DNA from: Gemmatimonadales bacterium
Lineage (GTDB): Bacteria; Gemmatimonadota; Glassbacteria; GWA2-58-10
DNA: 64,000 bases
Assembly (NCBI GenBank): GCA_024278175.1
Contig: JAJRTS010000036.1
Coordinates: 1 to 64,000, forward strand
Direction of reading: 5' to 3'
In this document: in pieces, positions 39,746 to 45,798 of the stretch
Numbering within the stretch: position 1 is the stretch's first letter
Layout of the letters: each line of letters opens with the position of its first letter
Translations under genes and position numbers: made by a program
Notes under the pieces: generated by a model
Told to the model about the DNA's origin: nothing
The model's database searches: none
The model's input: only the letters and a program-made list of their open reading frames with translations

Positions 39746-40798
39746 TCAATCGCCGCTTTGTGCCCCGCTAAAAAACGCGGGCACACAGCAAAACAGCAGA
39801 CCGATATCGCGCACCAGCAGCCGCCAGGGAGGCGTATAGCCGCTGCCGAAACATCCGCAATCAAAATCCAGGCCACGGGCGATATTGAACGAGATCGCCA
39901 CGATAAACACGAGTGTCAGCCCGGCCAGCACCAGCGCACAGCCGCCACGGATAAATCCGGCGAGCAACAATATTCCGCACAGCAGTTCCACCCAGGGCAG
40001 GACCACGGCCACGAAATTGACAAACAACGGCGGCAGAATCCGGTAGTTGTCCACGATATCAGCGAACTGGACCGGAGAGGAGATCTTGTGCAGTGAAGCC
40101 ATCACGAACACCAGCCCGACAAGTTTCACTCCCACCAGGGCCGGAAAAGCGTCCGGCCGCCCCTTAAGCGTATAGGCGACCAGCAGAATTCCAAACGCCA
40201 GCAGGACGAACTCCGCGGCGATCCAGAGCCAGCCCGGCACGTAGCGGCTGAAATCGATCATCCGCTTCAGCGTCAGCTTGCCGGCCCCCGGCTGCCCGCC
40301 GCCCACGCCTGTTTCCACTTCCAGGCCGGCAGCGCGCCAGCCGCTGATCCCGTCCTCGAACACATAGAGCAATCCAAAACCCAACTCCTGCATGGTTTGT
40401 GCAAGAAACCGGCTGTCCTCGCAGTCCTCTCCGGCGCAGTAGAGCAGCATGGGCTGCTCCAGGCTCGCCTGCTCGAGCAGGGGTGGCAGAAAAACCTCGA
40501 GTTCGTAGACGAAACAGTTCACCGCACCCGGAAGATGCCCCTGGGCGAACTGCTCCGGCGAGCGGGCGTCCACAACCAACCCGCGTTGCTCGTCAAGGAA
40601 CTTACGGGCGGCGTCCAGGCCGACCAGATGGATTCCATCCTGCTCCGGCAGACCCTGGCCCAGCGCCCGCATGACCGTATCGGCGGGAGCAATAAGCGCA
40701 ATGCCGCCGAAGCTGTTATAGAGCAGAGCGGCTGCCGTGGCAATCACAACGAGCAGGGCCGCCTGGCCCCAGCGCAATTTAGCTTTAACGCGATTCAT
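39746..40798 (-). CDS. Rhodanese domain fused to MauE/DoxX-like membrane domain
   Basis: A 350-residue protein in three parts. There is an N-terminal membrane anchor (about residues 12-38). A rhodanese domain follows (about 55-170), with VVDARSPEQFAQGHLPGAVN and an active-site loop LLYCAGEDCEDS (Cys121). A four-helix MauE/DoxX-like domain (about 185-345) ends with ARGLDFDCGCFGS, the Cys motif of MauE-type quinone-linked thiol reductases. The topology would place the rhodanese outside the membrane. I infer a membrane thiol or sulfane-sulfur relay, perhaps feeding disulfide formation. ATG 40798 follows GGAG. It is the first gene of the operon leading to murE. Confidence 0.85.
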   Translation of the reverse strand: MNRVKAKLRWGQAALLVVIATAAALLYNSFGGIALIAPADTVMRALGQGLPEQDGIHLVGLDAARKFLDEQRGLVVDARSPEQFAQGHLPGAVNCFVYELEVFLPPLLEQASLEQPMLLYCAGEDCEDSRFLAQTMQELGFGLLYVFEDGISGWRAAGLEVETGVGGGQPGAGKLTLKRMIDFSRYVPGWLWIAAEFVLLAFGILLVAYTLKGRPDAFPALVGVKLVGLVFVMASLHKISSPVQFADIVDNYRILPPLFVNFVAVVLPWVELLCGILLLAGFIRGGCALVLAGLTLVFIVAISFNIARGLDFDCGCFGSGYTPPWRLLVRDIGLLFCCVPAFFSGAQSGD

Positions 40799-40920
40799 CG
40801 TTTCTCCGGACAGCACGTTGATTCCAATCCGGCCCCGCAGGCGCGACACAAGTTGCGCCCCGGGGGATCAGCAGGACAGGGCTTTAACTTAGCTCCCAGA
40901 GACGAACAATTCAAGTAACG

Positions 40921-40966
40921 GCATAAAACGACAGGCCCCCGCTGGAATCAACCAGCCGGGGGCCTG
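40921..40966 (-). terminator. Terminator after the Spy-like operon
   Basis: Arms CAGGCCCCCGCTGG (40932-40945) and CCAGCCGGGGGCCTG (40952-40966) form a strong stem with one bulge. Reading leftward on the minus strand it is followed by a T-rich stretch (TCGTTTTA). Confidence 0.8.
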
Positions 40967-40994
40967 CAATGCGCTTATGTGCAAAAGCGGTAAC

Positions 40995-42359
40995 TTATTT
41001 GAGCATCACCATTTTCCTGCTCTGCTCGTGCTCACCGGCCTGCAGCCTGTAGAGGTATACTCCGCTGGAAACCCCGCGGCCGTTGCCGTCCAACCCGTCC
41101 CAGGTAACGCTGTAGCTGCCGCCAGCGGAAAACGCTTCCACCAGCCGGATTATTTCCCTGCCCCGCATGTCGTAGATCGTCAGGCGCACCGGCATGGCGC
41201 CGCCGCCTTCGGGCACGGAATACGAGATAGTGGTACTGGGATTGAACGGGTTGGGGCTGTTCTGCGCCAGAGAAAACCCTTTGGGCAGTTCAACCCCGGC
41301 GGCCAGCTCCGCGTTGGCTGCCGTGCTTTCGGAAAGGGTTCCGGCGGATTCCCCCGCCACCCGCCGCCGATGACGCTCTTCGAGTTGCCCAAGGAATTCG
41401 TTCAGTTTATCCTGTTGGCCGGAGTCCAGAATACCCGCCAGTTCACCGACAAACCCATCGACCAGCGGCTTGATCAGCAGATGAACCTGTTCGCGCTCAA
41501 GCTTCTGCTCACGCGCCAGGCCGAGCGATTCCCTGATCTGCTTTCTATAGGGAGCCGCCAACTCGCGCAGTTGCTCCAGTTGAGCGTCACTCAGTTGGAG
41601 CTGGCCGCGAATTTGATGCATCAGCTGACCCATCGGCCCAGGTTTACCCCCGCCCCTCTTGCCCTTGCCGCCGGGACCGGCCATATCGCTCATGAGCGTC
41701 TTGAGTTGCTCCATCTGCGCGGCAGTGAGCACGCCGGCAAGGTCCTGACGGAACCTGTCGCGCTCGGCGTCGAGCAGCGTACGGGCCTGCTCGCGCTCTA
41801 ATTCCTCGGATTTGGCCTTATCCCTGATTCCACGCAGGTTTTCCTGATGTCGCTTGCGCAGTTGGGCCAACTGCTCCTGCTGGCTGTCGCTCAGGCCGAG
41901 TTGCCGCATGGCCGCACCGGTGCGGCCTTTGCCTTTACCTTGCCGAAGTTTTCGCTGCTTCTCCCAGCTAGCCAGCTTTTCGATCTGAGCGGCAGTGAGC
42001 ATGCCTGTCAGGTCCTGACGGAACTTGTCGCGCTCGGTTTTGAACAGTGCACGGGCCTGCCGGCGGTCAAGCTCGCCGGCGCGCACTTTTTCCCGCACGG
42101 ACTTCACCTGCTTGCCCCTGGCCTCGAACAACTGCCGGGCCTGAGCCCGCTGAGACTCGTCAAGCTCCAGAAAATCGCACATGCGCTCGAAAAGCTTCCG
42201 GGCGTCCTGCCGGCTCACGTGCGTTTCTTCCCGTATTGGCCTCCGGCGATCCGCTGCAGACCCCTCGCGCTGCGCGGCCGCCAGTGAAGTGAGCGAAAGC
42301 GCCGTTCCCACCAGAACCATCAGCACGGCCACGGCCAGAAAATTCCCGAACGATCTCAT
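40995..42359 (-). CDS. Spy/CpxP-like multi-repeat protein with C-terminal T9SS/FlgD-like sorting domain
   Basis: A 454-residue exported protein. After the signal peptide (cleavage near SLAAAQ) there are three Spy-like helical repeats of about 75-90 residues, each ending in the LTxxQ-type unit: LTAAQIEKLASWE, LTAAQMEQLKTLM and LDSGQQDKLNEFL. Residues about 370-454 form a beta domain (NSPNPFNPSTTISYSVPE, VRLTIYDMRGREI, SSGVYLYRLQAGE), the terminal sorting/Ig module common in FCB bacteria. Spy-type proteins are ATP-independent periplasmic chaperones; the tail suggests export to the surface instead. GGGAGG precedes the ATG. It is the last gene of the ECF sigma operon. Confidence 0.85.
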   Translation of the reverse strand: MRSFGNFLAVAVLMVLVGTALSLTSLAAAQREGSAADRRRPIREETHVSRQDARKLFERMCDFLELDESQRAQARQLFEARGKQVKSVREKVRAGELDRRQARALFKTERDKFRQDLTGMLTAAQIEKLASWEKQRKLRQGKGKGRTGAAMRQLGLSDSQQEQLAQLRKRHQENLRGIRDKAKSEELEREQARTLLDAERDRFRQDLAGVLTAAQMEQLKTLMSDMAGPGGKGKRGGGKPGPMGQLMHQIRGQLQLSDAQLEQLRELAAPYRKQIRESLGLAREQKLEREQVHLLIKPLVDGFVGELAGILDSGQQDKLNEFLGQLEERHRRRVAGESAGTLSESTAANAELAAGVELPKGFSLAQNSPNPFNPSTTISYSVPEGGGAMPVRLTIYDMRGREIIRLVEAFSAGGSYSVTWDGLDGNGRGVSSGVYLYRLQAGEHEQSRKMVMLK

Positions 42360-42435
42360 TACTGCCTCCCTGCCGCAGTGTGCGGCAACCGGTCGTTGGA
42401 TAGATTTGCTATCCCCTTCTCAGCCTGTCCTGCAT

Positions 42436-43242
42436 TTACTTTTTAGCGGTCGTATCCCGCTGCCCGCCGCCATGATGGAACAGCTCCGCATCGTTATCCA
42501 CATCCAGGCCGGGCAAGCCCCTGGCCTCCAGATCCTTACTGATCCTCTTGAGATTTTCTCTGAGTTTCCGCATTTCACCCTGGAGTTTTTGCTTATCGAA
42601 GCCGGAATTTTCCCAGCTTCTGCCACCGGGCTTATGCCGCACGCGCGCAATCGACTCCCAGATATTGCGTTCCACATCGCCCAACTCCAGGGCCATGCGA
42701 GCCTGCTGCTCGATGCTCAGGATTTCAGCGCCCCTGTCGATCGCCTCGCTTTTGGTCTCGATAACCTGGCGGGCATTGCGCTTCAAATCAGCCAGCAACT
42801 TCTTCAGTTCCGCTTCCGAGGGTTCTTCTTTGCTCAATTCCTCGCGCATTTTAGTGACCAAAGTGTGGCGCTGCCGGGCCAGTTCCTTCTCTTTCTTGCC
42901 CAATTCCCGCATCAGCGGAAAAAACTTGTCCACCTGGTCGTCTGTGAGATCCAGGTTTTCCATGATTCTCCACAGGCGGTACAATTGAATCCGTTCGGTA
43001 TGCTTGTCCATCTTTTTTCCTCGCTCATGCTTGTCCTCATCGGCATAAGCCAGCATTTCATACTCGTGCTTTTCCATCATTGGCAGCGGGGGCAATTCAG
43101 GCTCCGGAACAGCGAAATCCGGCAGAGCGGATTCCACGTCAAACCATTCAATCCGCGCCTCGTGCTTCACGCCCTCATCGGGTGCGGCGGCCAGGTTGCC
43201 CGCCAGCAGCAGCACAGCCAGAGAAACCGTTAAACATTTCAT
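42436..43242 (-). CDS. Exported Spy/LTxxQ-like protein
   Basis: A 268-residue exported, highly charged helical protein. The signal peptide ends near NLAAA. MENLDLTDDQVDKFFPLM is a Spy-like LTxxQ unit, followed by long amphipathic helices with heptad features (ELGKKEKELARQRHTLVTK; SEAELKKLLADLKRNARQV). The acidic N-terminal tail has several prolines. It lacks the C-terminal sorting domain of its neighbour, so it is likely periplasmic. ATG 43242 has AGGAG with good spacing. The gene lies 70 nt after the anti-sigma factor and 76 nt before the larger Spy-like gene. Confidence 0.75.
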   Translation of the reverse strand: MKCLTVSLAVLLLAGNLAAAPDEGVKHEARIEWFDVESALPDFAVPEPELPPLPMMEKHEYEMLAYADEDKHERGKKMDKHTERIQLYRLWRIMENLDLTDDQVDKFFPLMRELGKKEKELARQRHTLVTKMREELSKEEPSEAELKKLLADLKRNARQVIETKSEAIDRGAEILSIEQQARMALELGDVERNIWESIARVRHKPGGRSWENSGFDKQKLQGEMRKLRENLKRISKDLEARGLPGLDVDNDAELFHHGGGQRDTTAKK

Positions 43243-43312
43243 CGTCAACTCCTAAGTAAAAACCGTTACCTGAATGTGCCGCCTCCGGTGCAGCGGCTCC
43301 GTGTAATAGTGA

Positions 43313-43945
43313 TCAATTGCTGGCCAGCACGTACAGCACCTGCTCCACCTGCTCATCTTCCATTGTCAGCAGCGCATCGTAAACGTTGCCCGTGCCAGGA
43401 TAGGTCATCTCCACCTCATCGTAGAGGGAGCTGTCGCTGCTTGAGCCGATCTCCTCGATAGACTCCATCGTCCTCCAGGCCATCTGATACTGTCCGGCCA
43501 GCCTGGCCAGCATGTAGAGCGAGTCCACCAGGGCCTCGGCGCTGACCGTGTCCGCCCCGGCAACCGCCACCTCCGGCCGCCGGGTATCCGGGTTAAACGC
43601 GCCGGTGCGCAAAGCGCCGATCAGCGCCAGCAGCAACACCGCCGCCACGGCCATCATCGGCGCCAGCTTGCGCAAGCGCCCGCGGCGGACCACGCCCGCC
43701 GGTTCACTCTTGAGCCAGGTAGCCCGGGCCACGCTCTCCAGATTGGCTTTCCAGAACGACTCGTCGGGTGGGGCCAGGTCGCGTACCCTGTCGGCCACCG
43801 CGGCCCGGACAGCCCTGAGCCGCAGCAGAGCGGTGTGGCACTCATCGCAGGAAGCCACGTGCTGGCCGATCTCGGCGGCCGCCGGACCCTCCAACTCGCC
43901 TTCGAGATACTCGATCATCACTCTGTCATCAACACAACAACGCAT
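43313..43945 (-). CDS. Zinc-finger anti-sigma factor (ZAS family)
   Basis: A 210-residue membrane protein. The cytoplasmic N-terminus has the ZAS motif HVASCDECH (H29, C33, C36). One membrane helix follows (LAPMMAVAAVLLLALIGALR, about residues 94-113), then an approximately 100-residue outer domain rich in acidic and serine residues. It should bind the ECF sigma factor encoded just upstream and release it on an envelope signal, after cleavage or conformational change. The start is probably ATG 43945 with GAGGTG at 6 nt; GTG 43954 would overlap the sigma stop by 4 nt. Either way the pair is coupled. Confidence 0.92.
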   Translation of the reverse strand: MRCCVDDRVMIEYLEGELEGPAAAEIGQHVASCDECHTALLRLRAVRAAVADRVRDLAPPDESFWKANLESVARATWLKSEPAGVVRRGRLRKLAPMMAVAAVLLLALIGALRTGAFNPDTRRPEVAVAGADTVSAEALVDSLYMLARLAGQYQMAWRTMESIEEIGSSSDSSLYDEVEMTYPGTGNVYDALLTMEDEQVEQVLYVLASN

Positions 43946-43950
43946 CTCGC

Positions 43951-44511
43951 TCACCTCTCTTTATAATCCAGGTCCATTCTGCCCATCGCCGGGGCCAGCC
44001 ATCTGGCCAGCGTTTTCAGCGCCCGGTGGAAGATGACCTTGGAGTTGCCATGACTTATTCCGCACGCTTGAGCCACTTCGCTAAACGGCATTTCCTGGTA
44101 AATTCTCAGCAACACCACCTTGCGCTGGTCCTCGCTCAGGTTGCCGAGCGCCACCGCCACCAATGCCGCCATCCGCTCCCTGTCCAGCGCTTCGCCCGGG
44201 TTTTGATCCTCCGCACTGAGCACCACGTCATCGAGCGCCACATCCCGCCTGCTTCTTCGCATGTAGTTGCGCGCCTGGTTGGCGGCTATCGTGTAAAACC
44301 AGACCCGGAAACGCTCGCCGCCGCGAATAGTATCCAGCTTCTCGTAGGCGCGAATCAGCGAGGATTGCAGCACGTCGGCGGCCTCGTCGTGGTCGAGATT
44401 CATCCCGCGCAGGAAACGGTACACCTGCTGCTGGTAGCGCTCGGCCAGCACACTGAATTTCTCCGTGGCCCCCGCCAGTATTTCATCAACTAACTGTTTG
44501 TCGGTCCGCAT
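43951..44511 (-). CDS. ECF-subfamily RNA polymerase sigma factor (RpoE-like)
   Basis: A 186-residue two-domain sigma factor. Region 2 (about 20-95) contains YRFLRGMNLDHDEAADVLQSSLIRAYEKLDTIR and FRVWFYTIAANQARNYMRRSRR. Region 4 (about 130-180) contains LSEDQRKVVLLRIYQEMPFSEVAQACGISHGNSKVIFHRALK, the -35-binding HTH. The linker is short. It is the first gene of a sigma/anti-sigma/Spy/Spy operon, so its main target is likely its own promoter and other envelope genes. The upstream 205 nt hold three palindromes. No strong ribosome-binding site precedes ATG 44511. Confidence 0.95.
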   Translation of the reverse strand: MRTDKQLVDEILAGATEKFSVLAERYQQQVYRFLRGMNLDHDEAADVLQSSLIRAYEKLDTIRGGERFRVWFYTIAANQARNYMRRSRRDVALDDVVLSAEDQNPGEALDRERMAALVAVALGNLSEDQRKVVLLRIYQEMPFSEVAQACGISHGNSKVIFHRALKTLARWLAPAMGRMDLDYKER

Positions 44512-44560: not shown

Positions 44561-44574
44561 GACAACCGGTTGTC
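44561..44574. promoter_or_regulatory. Palindrome upstream of the ECF sigma gene
   Basis: GACAACCGGTTGTC is a perfect 14-bp palindrome, 49 nt before the sigma-factor start. It lies where the sigma gene's promoter is expected (minus-strand GTAACC is close by). Possible operator; no regulator can be named. Confidence 0.4.
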
Positions 44575-44611
44575 CGGTTCGGTTACATTTTTTCCACCGG
44601 GTTGAAAAGCC

Positions 44612-44716: not shown

Positions 44717-45757
44717 TCAAGCGACGCCGCCACCGCGCGGTCCCTGTTCATCTTTTTCAGCGCCGGAGTGCCGGCCGGCCGGCGGCGCTTCCGGCCGGTA
44801 AGGCCCGGCGGGAATGTTCGACTCGATCAGCCTGCTTTCACTGCGGCGCATCTCATCCAGTTTTCTCCTGTTTCGTGCGCGGCGGCGGGCGAACACCACC
44901 AGGAACAGCAGCGCGGCCAGAATCCACATCAAGGTGGCGCTGGTGAGCAGCTTGAGCCAGCCGTAGCGCACTCCCGCCCATTGGCGCCACTTGTCCTCCA
45001 ACCGGCTCAGGGTCAGTCCCAGGCTGGTGCGAAGAGCCGTGTCCAACTCTCCCGTGGCGCGCCAGCGCGCAAAAAGAAGCTGCATCTGGGATTCGTCCCA
45101 GTGTTCGAACATGAACTCCACCACAGTATAGCTCTGGATGTAGGCCAGTTCCGCCCGCTCCTCGTTTTCCGGGAAGCCGCTATCCAGGCTGTGAAGGGAG
45201 AACGCCCTGCCGCCAAGGATGGCAACCGAGAAGCGCAGAAAACTCTCCAGGCCCCACATCCGGCTCGCGTACAGGGCGTAACCCTCGTGAAACCAGCGCG
45301 GCACCCTGGCACCTTCAAGGTATTGATCCAGAAAGATATGGGTTATCTCGTGATTGAGTATCTCGCGAGGGTCCTCGCGCCAGAGCTCCACGATCCTCGG
45401 TGAGCGTACTATCACCACGTCCGTGCCGGTGATGGCGCAGGCAACTCCCCACTCGGGCAGCATCCCGCCGCTCAGGGCGATAAACTCACTTTGAGTGGGT
45501 ACGATATAGATTGAGAGACTTATCGGGGTATGAGCGGAAAGCCAATCAGGACGCGGCCTGTAGGCCACCGCCCAATCAAGATAATCCCGCGCCACCTTAG
45601 CGTCCCCTGCCCTGTAATACACAGTGACCACTCCCCGGCCGATAGCGAGATAGTTTTCGGCATTCGGCAGGGACTGCGCCCGTGAGAGTGAGGCGGGCAT
45701 AAAAGCAAACAGCCCCGCCAGCAGCATAACCACGGCATATTTCCTGATGAAAAGCAT
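44717..45757 (-). CDS. Peptidase MA-like membrane-anchored zinc protease
   Basis: A 346-residue protein. The signal peptide ends near LSRA. The extracytoplasmic gluzincin domain (about 30-260) carries REILNHEITHIFLDQYLEGARVPRWFHEGYALYAS, i.e. HExxH with the third ligand Glu 22 residues on. A single membrane helix (LLTSATLMWILAALLFLVVFA, about 275-297) is followed by a basic and proline-rich cytosolic tail. Peptidase MA-like proteins are frequent in FCB and Chloroflexi genomes and their substrates are unknown. ATG 45757 with GAGG upstream is preferred to the TTG two codons earlier. Confidence 0.85.
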   Translation of the reverse strand: MLFIRKYAVVMLLAGLFAFMPASLSRAQSLPNAENYLAIGRGVVTVYYRAGDAKVARDYLDWAVAYRPRPDWLSAHTPISLSIYIVPTQSEFIALSGGMLPEWGVACAITGTDVVIVRSPRIVELWREDPREILNHEITHIFLDQYLEGARVPRWFHEGYALYASRMWGLESFLRFSVAILGGRAFSLHSLDSGFPENEERAELAYIQSYTVVEFMFEHWDESQMQLLFARWRATGELDTALRTSLGLTLSRLEDKWRQWAGVRYGWLKLLTSATLMWILAALLFLVVFARRRARNRRKLDEMRRSESRLIESNIPAGPYRPEAPPAGRHSGAEKDEQGPRGGGVA

Positions 45758-45798
45758 TGACAAGCCGCCTCAAAACATTATCTTACAGGACTCGAACC

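Follow-up and report, generated by a model that had tools for sequence, protein, structure and literature searches.

We identified a cluster of four genes that is likely to be an autoregulated extracytoplasmic-stress operon with a Spy-type chaperone as its output. The cluster is on the minus strand of a 64,000-nucleotide (nt) stretch of DNA (the window; positions 1 to 64,000 of contig JAJRTS010000036.1, assembly GCA_024278175.1) from a 4.18 Mb draft genome in the Gemmatimonadota; among named organisms, Candidatus Glassbacteria are its closest relatives. In the order of transcription, the genes encode an extracytoplasmic function (ECF) sigma factor, a zinc-binding anti-sigma (ZAS) factor, a protein with a predicted Spy/CnrX fold (gene 3; P0002), and a protein with three Spy units and a C-terminal type IX sorting domain (gene 4; P0001). 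A first-pass annotation of the window had placed four adjacent minus-strand genes here, and all four were found at those positions (Table 1).

The first two genes have the identities that had been proposed for them. The product of gene 1 matched sigma regions 2 and 4 (Sigma70_r2, 51.4 bits; Sigma70_r4_2, 45.2 bits) and TIGR02937 (93.1 bits; cut-off 42.9), and no region 3 (or 1) was found in Pfam and NCBIfam searches, which is the domain content of an ECF sigma factor. It is 42-74% identical to its counterparts in relatives. The product of gene 2 matched zf-HC2 (23.0 bits; cut-off 22.2). Its zinc ligands, the ZAS pattern HxxxCxxC plus a fourth ligand (H29xxxC33xxC36 and C3), were invariant across the sequences of six relatives. 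A single hydrophobic segment, read off the sequence at approximately residues 95-113, points to one membrane span followed by a C-terminal periplasmic part.

We compared the locus in six genomes of the family, including the window genome and five relatives (G001-G005), which together represent five genera. The order sigma factor, anti-sigma factor, P0002, Spy-type protein was retained in all six, and on this basis the arrangement is not due to chance. The first-pass annotation had named loss of this order in relatives as a finding that would refute it, and no such loss was found. The intergenic gaps are 5 nt between the sigma and anti-sigma genes and then 70 and 76 nt, with comparable gaps in the relatives. 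The sequence TGTAAC-N17-TGTC is present as an exact match in 6/6 genomes, approximately 65-76 nt before the sigma gene, in upstream regions that have otherwise diverged. It is presumably an ECF-type promoter, reminiscent of those used by B. subtilis sigma-X, W and M. The copy upstream of the operon is the only exact match within the window; a scan of the whole genome found two others, both inside long reading frames, which we set aside. A simple scan for sigma-70 promoters found nothing of relevance. Downstream of gene 4 there is a strong hairpin resembling an intrinsic terminator and followed by TTTTAT. The fold of this region had an energy of -37.8 kcal/mol (z -4.55), and a simple terminator scanner did not list the hairpin. 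From promoter to hairpin, the four genes read as one transcription unit. With a shared promoter, a conserved order and a terminator-like end, sigma/anti-sigma control of the Spy-type proteins, as put forward in the first-pass annotation, is borne out at the level of sequence.

The association of the sigma factor with P0002 extends beyond the family. When 395 Gemmatimonadota genomes were searched with a profile made from P0002, 18 genomes outside the family gave weak relatives. At 13 of the 19 P0002-type loci outside the family, an ECF sigma gene of the same strand was located 420-750 nt upstream, a distance that leaves room for one anti-sigma gene. No such neighbor was found at any of 65 control loci, which included 24 gene-4-type Spy loci. 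Each of the 13 sigma genes was preceded by CTTAA[C/T]-N16-CGTC (GTTAAC in one case), compared with 0.05 expected in shuffled sequence, and these loci represent ten genera belonging to three families. The linkage (13/19 versus 0/65), together with the promoter (13/13), indicates that P0002-type proteins are sigma-linked members and that the sigma/P0002 cassette probably controls its own expression throughout the phylum.

Similar promoters also precede Spy genes that are not linked to the operon, and it is therefore likely that the sigma factor controls a Spy regulon. In the window genome, the second Spy gene on contig 52 is preceded by a match at 9/10 promoter positions. Unlinked Spy genes of three relatives had matches at 10/10 (G004), 9/10 (G005) and 9/10 (G003) positions, and in G001 an exact match precedes another Spy-like gene (L085). 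In other families of Gemmatimonadota, 13 of 24 unlinked Spy genes had CTTAAC/GTTAAC-N16/17-CGTC upstream (0.09 expected). We made three further observations on promoters and Spy-type genes. At four loci in relatives (L066, L069, L070 and L093), an unlinked Spy gene precedes a gene whose large product has a carboxypeptidase-regulatory-like N-terminus, as is typical for TonB-dependent receptors; this suggests a second conserved operon in the same regulon. On contig 208 of G001 (L090), an exact promoter of the sigma type is located 56 nt before a gene for a MacA/HlyD-like efflux adaptor. An LTXXQ gene on contig 12 of the window genome (L023) was set aside, as it belongs to a separate locus associated with mobile elements. 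It encodes a membrane-anchored LTXXQ protein between integrase-like and TolC-like genes, near an IS21-like pair, and this is probably an acquired metal-resistance locus.

The two remaining proteins had been described as Spy/CpxP-like, and different evidence places each of them there. For gene 3, the evidence comes from its family and its predicted fold. Five of the six family members matched both Metal_resist (PF13801) and LTXXQ (PF07813), with E-values of up to 1 and best values of 6.8e-7 and 3.6e-6, respectively. The predicted four-helix core of P0002 has a predicted local distance difference test score (pLDDT) of ~80, and the best-ranking solved structures in a Foldseek search included CnrX, NccX, ZraP, Spy and CpxP. 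The highest template modeling (TM) score by target length, 0.79-0.81, was for CnrX, the periplasmic sensor of the CnrYXH system of Cupriavidus metallidurans, in which CnrH is the ECF sigma factor and CnrY the anti-sigma factor (PMC7689651, PMC4598750). Searching solved structures by sequence, with P0002 and with the gene-4 set, yielded nothing useful. Taken together, the profile matches and the model place gene 3 in the Spy/CpxP/CnrX superfamily, where it most resembles CnrX.

For gene 4, the evidence is the three tandem Spy units. The first-pass annotation had counted three LTxxQ repeats; there are three repeats, but each is a Spy unit with two LTxxQ-like motifs. The units are predicted to be helical hairpins with good local confidence (unit 1 pLDDT mostly 83-93). 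The score of gene 4 against LTXXQ (PF07813) was 23.8 bits, slightly below the gathering score of 24.3, and members of the gene-4 set reached E-values down to 5.4e-6. Gene 4 was below the cut-off of the E. coli Spy equivalog NF007769 (22.6 bits; cut-off 174), and a fold search with the entire model recovered only FlgD, for the tail. The two Spy-like proteins look different in role, gene 3 being of a sensor type that is linked to sigma genes across the phylum and gene 4 an effector-type Spy.

The C-terminal sorting/Ig domain reported for gene 4 was also recovered, with scores above the curated cut-offs of TIGR04183 (Por_Secre_tail; 31.2 bits versus 23) and PF13860 (FlgD_ig; 29 bits versus 27). 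The same tail is found on 22 other proteins of the window genome, which also encodes PorU (579 bits; cut-off 420), SprA (441; 200) and a PorV/PorQ family protein (120.8; 90). P0001 is thus a candidate type IX substrate, and its probable fate in this genome is export followed by anchoring on the outside of the outer membrane. This PorU, a protein of 1321 amino acids above the NCBIfam equivalog cut-off, is encoded on contig 60 (L127) directly before a PorV/PorQ-family gene, and on this evidence Candidatus Glassbacteria has a type IX secretion outer-membrane module.

Comparison with the five relatives led us to reject the idea that surface display is what the operon conserves. In G004, which belongs to the same genus, gene 4 ends at an in-frame TAG after two Spy units and has also suffered a deletion. 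The in-frame letters past the TAG, LDLSGEQTGQSRKLVMLM, resemble the beginning of a third unit fused to the last part of a tail, and a terminator-like hairpin comes next. Because of this remnant, the tail was probably present before the two species separated and later decayed in G004. In G001, G002 and G003, from three other genera, gene 4 is short and encodes one Spy unit without a tail. The G005 contig ends within the third Spy unit, before the region where a tail would follow. Three other G005 contigs (220, 332 and 247) were considered as the missing 3' end and rejected, since their best tail fragments belonged to other genes, and the downstream rhodanese gene had no match in the G005 assembly in this search. 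Among the matches listed from the 395 Gemmatimonadota genomes, there was no tailed Spy protein in the 24 best loci or in 14 long-frame matches. The tail fusion is thus a lineage-specific elaboration outside the core of the circuit, and the suggestion that it belongs to the conserved circuit was not supported.

We propose the following mechanism. The membrane anti-sigma factor would hold the ECF sigma factor through its zinc-finger domain. The gene 3 product, soluble or tethered in the periplasm, would monitor the envelope, with unfolded or aggregating protein as the most likely signal, and would couple that signal to release of the sigma factor by acting via the anti-sigma factor's periplasmic part. 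The freed sigma factor would transcribe its own operon from TGTAAC-N17-TGTC and also the unlinked Spy-like genes. The output would be extra Spy-type chaperone; gene 4 would be one such output, which in the window genome has grown to three Spy units and acquired a type IX sorting tail. The gene content, gene order, promoter motif, terminator hairpin, tail and PorU-, SprA- and PorV-type proteins are read from the DNA. We infer the sensing step from the fold of P0002, its position in the operon and the precedent of CnrYXH; the signal, the direction in which gene 3 acts, the chaperone activity and the surface location are likewise parts of this proposal.

Several observations weigh against the proposal. 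P0002 by itself matches no family above cut-off in Pfam or NCBIfam, its Foldseek E-values are weak (0.16-0.4), the mean pLDDT of its model is 57, and a profile comparison between P0002 and the gene-4 Spy set was also weak (probability 9%). Some Spy genes of the family lack the promoter. Outside the family, the Spy loci that carry the motif represent two genera only, and because 11 of the 13 are from one genus, the count overstates their independence; the genomes with these Spy genes also differ from those with the sigma loci that we examined. The tail is not conserved, the window genome being the only one with an intact copy among the gene-4 orthologues. A serious rival, to which we give a substantial minority share of belief, is that gene 3 is only a chaperone output or feedback damper like Spy or CpxP, with the anti-sigma factor itself sensing stress and being proteolysed like RseA. 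CpxP, a relative of Spy, dampens the pathway to which it belongs but is not needed for most signals (PMC6737893), and a conserved Peptidase_MA_2 metallopeptidase gene is found just upstream in at least four relatives. However, P0002-type genes are tied to sigma genes across the phylum, the 24 gene-4-type loci have no sigma neighbor, and CnrX, a true sigma-system sensor, is among the closest solved folds.

The same fold matches (CnrX, NccX and ZraP), together with the Metal_resist matches in the family, would also fit sensing of nickel, cobalt or zinc as in CnrYXH. We consider this improbable. No His or Cys was invariant across the six P0002 family members in a test at the sequence level, so a CnrX-type metal site is disfavored and unfolded protein is the likelier signal. 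Moreover, there are no metal efflux genes within the operon or among its conserved neighbors, and CnrY belongs to another structural class of anti-sigma factor, not the zinc-finger class (PMC4598750). For the tail, it seems rather unlikely that it is a recent accident, a functionless fusion or leftover on a protein that remains periplasmic like its tail-less orthologues. The state of gene 4 in G001, G002, G003 and G004 speaks for an accident, but the tail is complete, in frame and above cut-off in a genome that encodes PorU-, SprA- and PorV-type proteins, and the G004 remnant probably dates it before the split of the two species. The most novel form of our proposal is that the ECF circuit sends a multi-domain Spy chaperone through type IX secretion to the outside of the outer membrane, as an ATP-independent surface answer to envelope stress. 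We regard this as a real possibility that falls short of probable. For the surface-displayed chaperone of the first-pass annotation, then, the sorting tail and the secretion proteins are present, but the tail is intact in this genome only and the location is a prediction.

Spy-fold proteins in ECF operons are already known, and the suggestion that sigma/anti-sigma control with a Spy-fold partner is new was not upheld. CnrYXH has the same combination of ECF sigma factor, membrane anti-sigma factor and periplasmic helical CnrX/Spy-fold protein. It differs in the class of its anti-sigma factor (PMC4598750), in the His/Met metal site of CnrX, whose conserved ligands gene 3 lacks at the sequence level, and in its output, a metal efflux pump rather than Spy-type proteins. 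In Azospirillum brasilense, the RpoE8 operon encodes a sigma factor, a hypothetical protein and a 'periplasmic heavy metal sensor' (PMC12826043), a co-expressed three-gene layout whose last member is by annotation a Spy-superfamily protein. That case comes from proteomics and annotation, and no additional Spy gene or sorting tail was reported. The Cpx response also has Spy-fold proteins in both roles, with CpxP as regulator and Spy as output (PMC6737893), but it works through the CpxA/CpxR two-component system; in Pfam and NCBIfam searches, neither the four genes nor their immediate neighbors were found to encode a kinase or response regulator. Plate-grown (biofilm) cells of Prevotella intermedia show a joint increase of an ECF sigma gene and an LTXXQ protein (PMC2633007). 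The system described here varies from these in having an anti-sigma factor of the zinc-finger type, a likely Spy regulon together with its promoter, and a tailed Spy protein of three units. Gene 4 resembles type IX type A substrates (TIGR04183) in its FlgD-Ig-like tail and in the PorU-, SprA- and PorV-type proteins of its genome, but differs in its Spy-type cargo and in a tail that relatives have not kept. The literature that we searched contained no description of a Spy-type type IX cargo or of a Spy-type chaperone outside the cell, and searches on sensors of ECF-type sigma factors, on type IX secretion in Glassbacteria and on type IX secretion with CpxP found nothing. The operon offers a concrete, testable envelope-stress regulon for an uncultured lineage, and probably for much of the Gemmatimonadota, in which a single sigma factor and a single promoter motif are combined with Spy-fold proteins that are likely to serve as sensor and as output. 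Should the tailed version really be displayed, a Spy-type chaperone would be at work outside the cell.

Table 1. Features of the operon, in window coordinates and in the order of transcription.
Feature	Coordinates	Strand	Remarks
ECF-type promoter, TGTAAC-N17-TGTC	44561..44587	-	begins 76 nt upstream of sigma start codon
ECF sigma factor, 186 amino acids	43951..44511	-	Pfam and NCBIfam matches above cut-off
ZAS anti-sigma factor, 210 amino acids	43313..43945	-	zf-HC2 above cut-off
Spy/CnrX-fold periplasmic protein (P0002), 268 amino acids, proposed sensor/co-regulator	42436..43242	-	
Triple-Spy protein with C-terminal type IX sorting domain (P0001), 454 amino acids	40995..42359	-	
Spy unit 1, residues 49-140	41940..42215	-	A4 profile match 41931-42356, E 1.9e-44
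Spy unit 2, residues 148-228	41676..41918	-	A4 profile match 41661-41906, E 2.4e-10
Spy unit 3, residues 244-336	41352..41630	-	A4 profile match 41361-41603, E 2.3e-5
Type A sorting/FlgD-Ig-like tail, residues 366-454	40998..41264	-	TIGR04183, PF13860
Intrinsic-terminator-like hairpin, then TTTTAT	40922..40967	-	ends operon; fold of 40915-40994

Both neighbors of the operon are shared with relatives. Directly upstream of the sigma promoter, at 44717-45763, is the gene for the membrane Peptidase_MA_2 (gluzincin-like) protein, which is found upstream of the operon in every relative contig that reaches that far and could be a protease of the sigma pathway. On the other side, the gene at 39746-40849 encodes a rhodanese domain fused with a MauE/DoxX-type membrane domain, and it adjoins the operon in relatives too.

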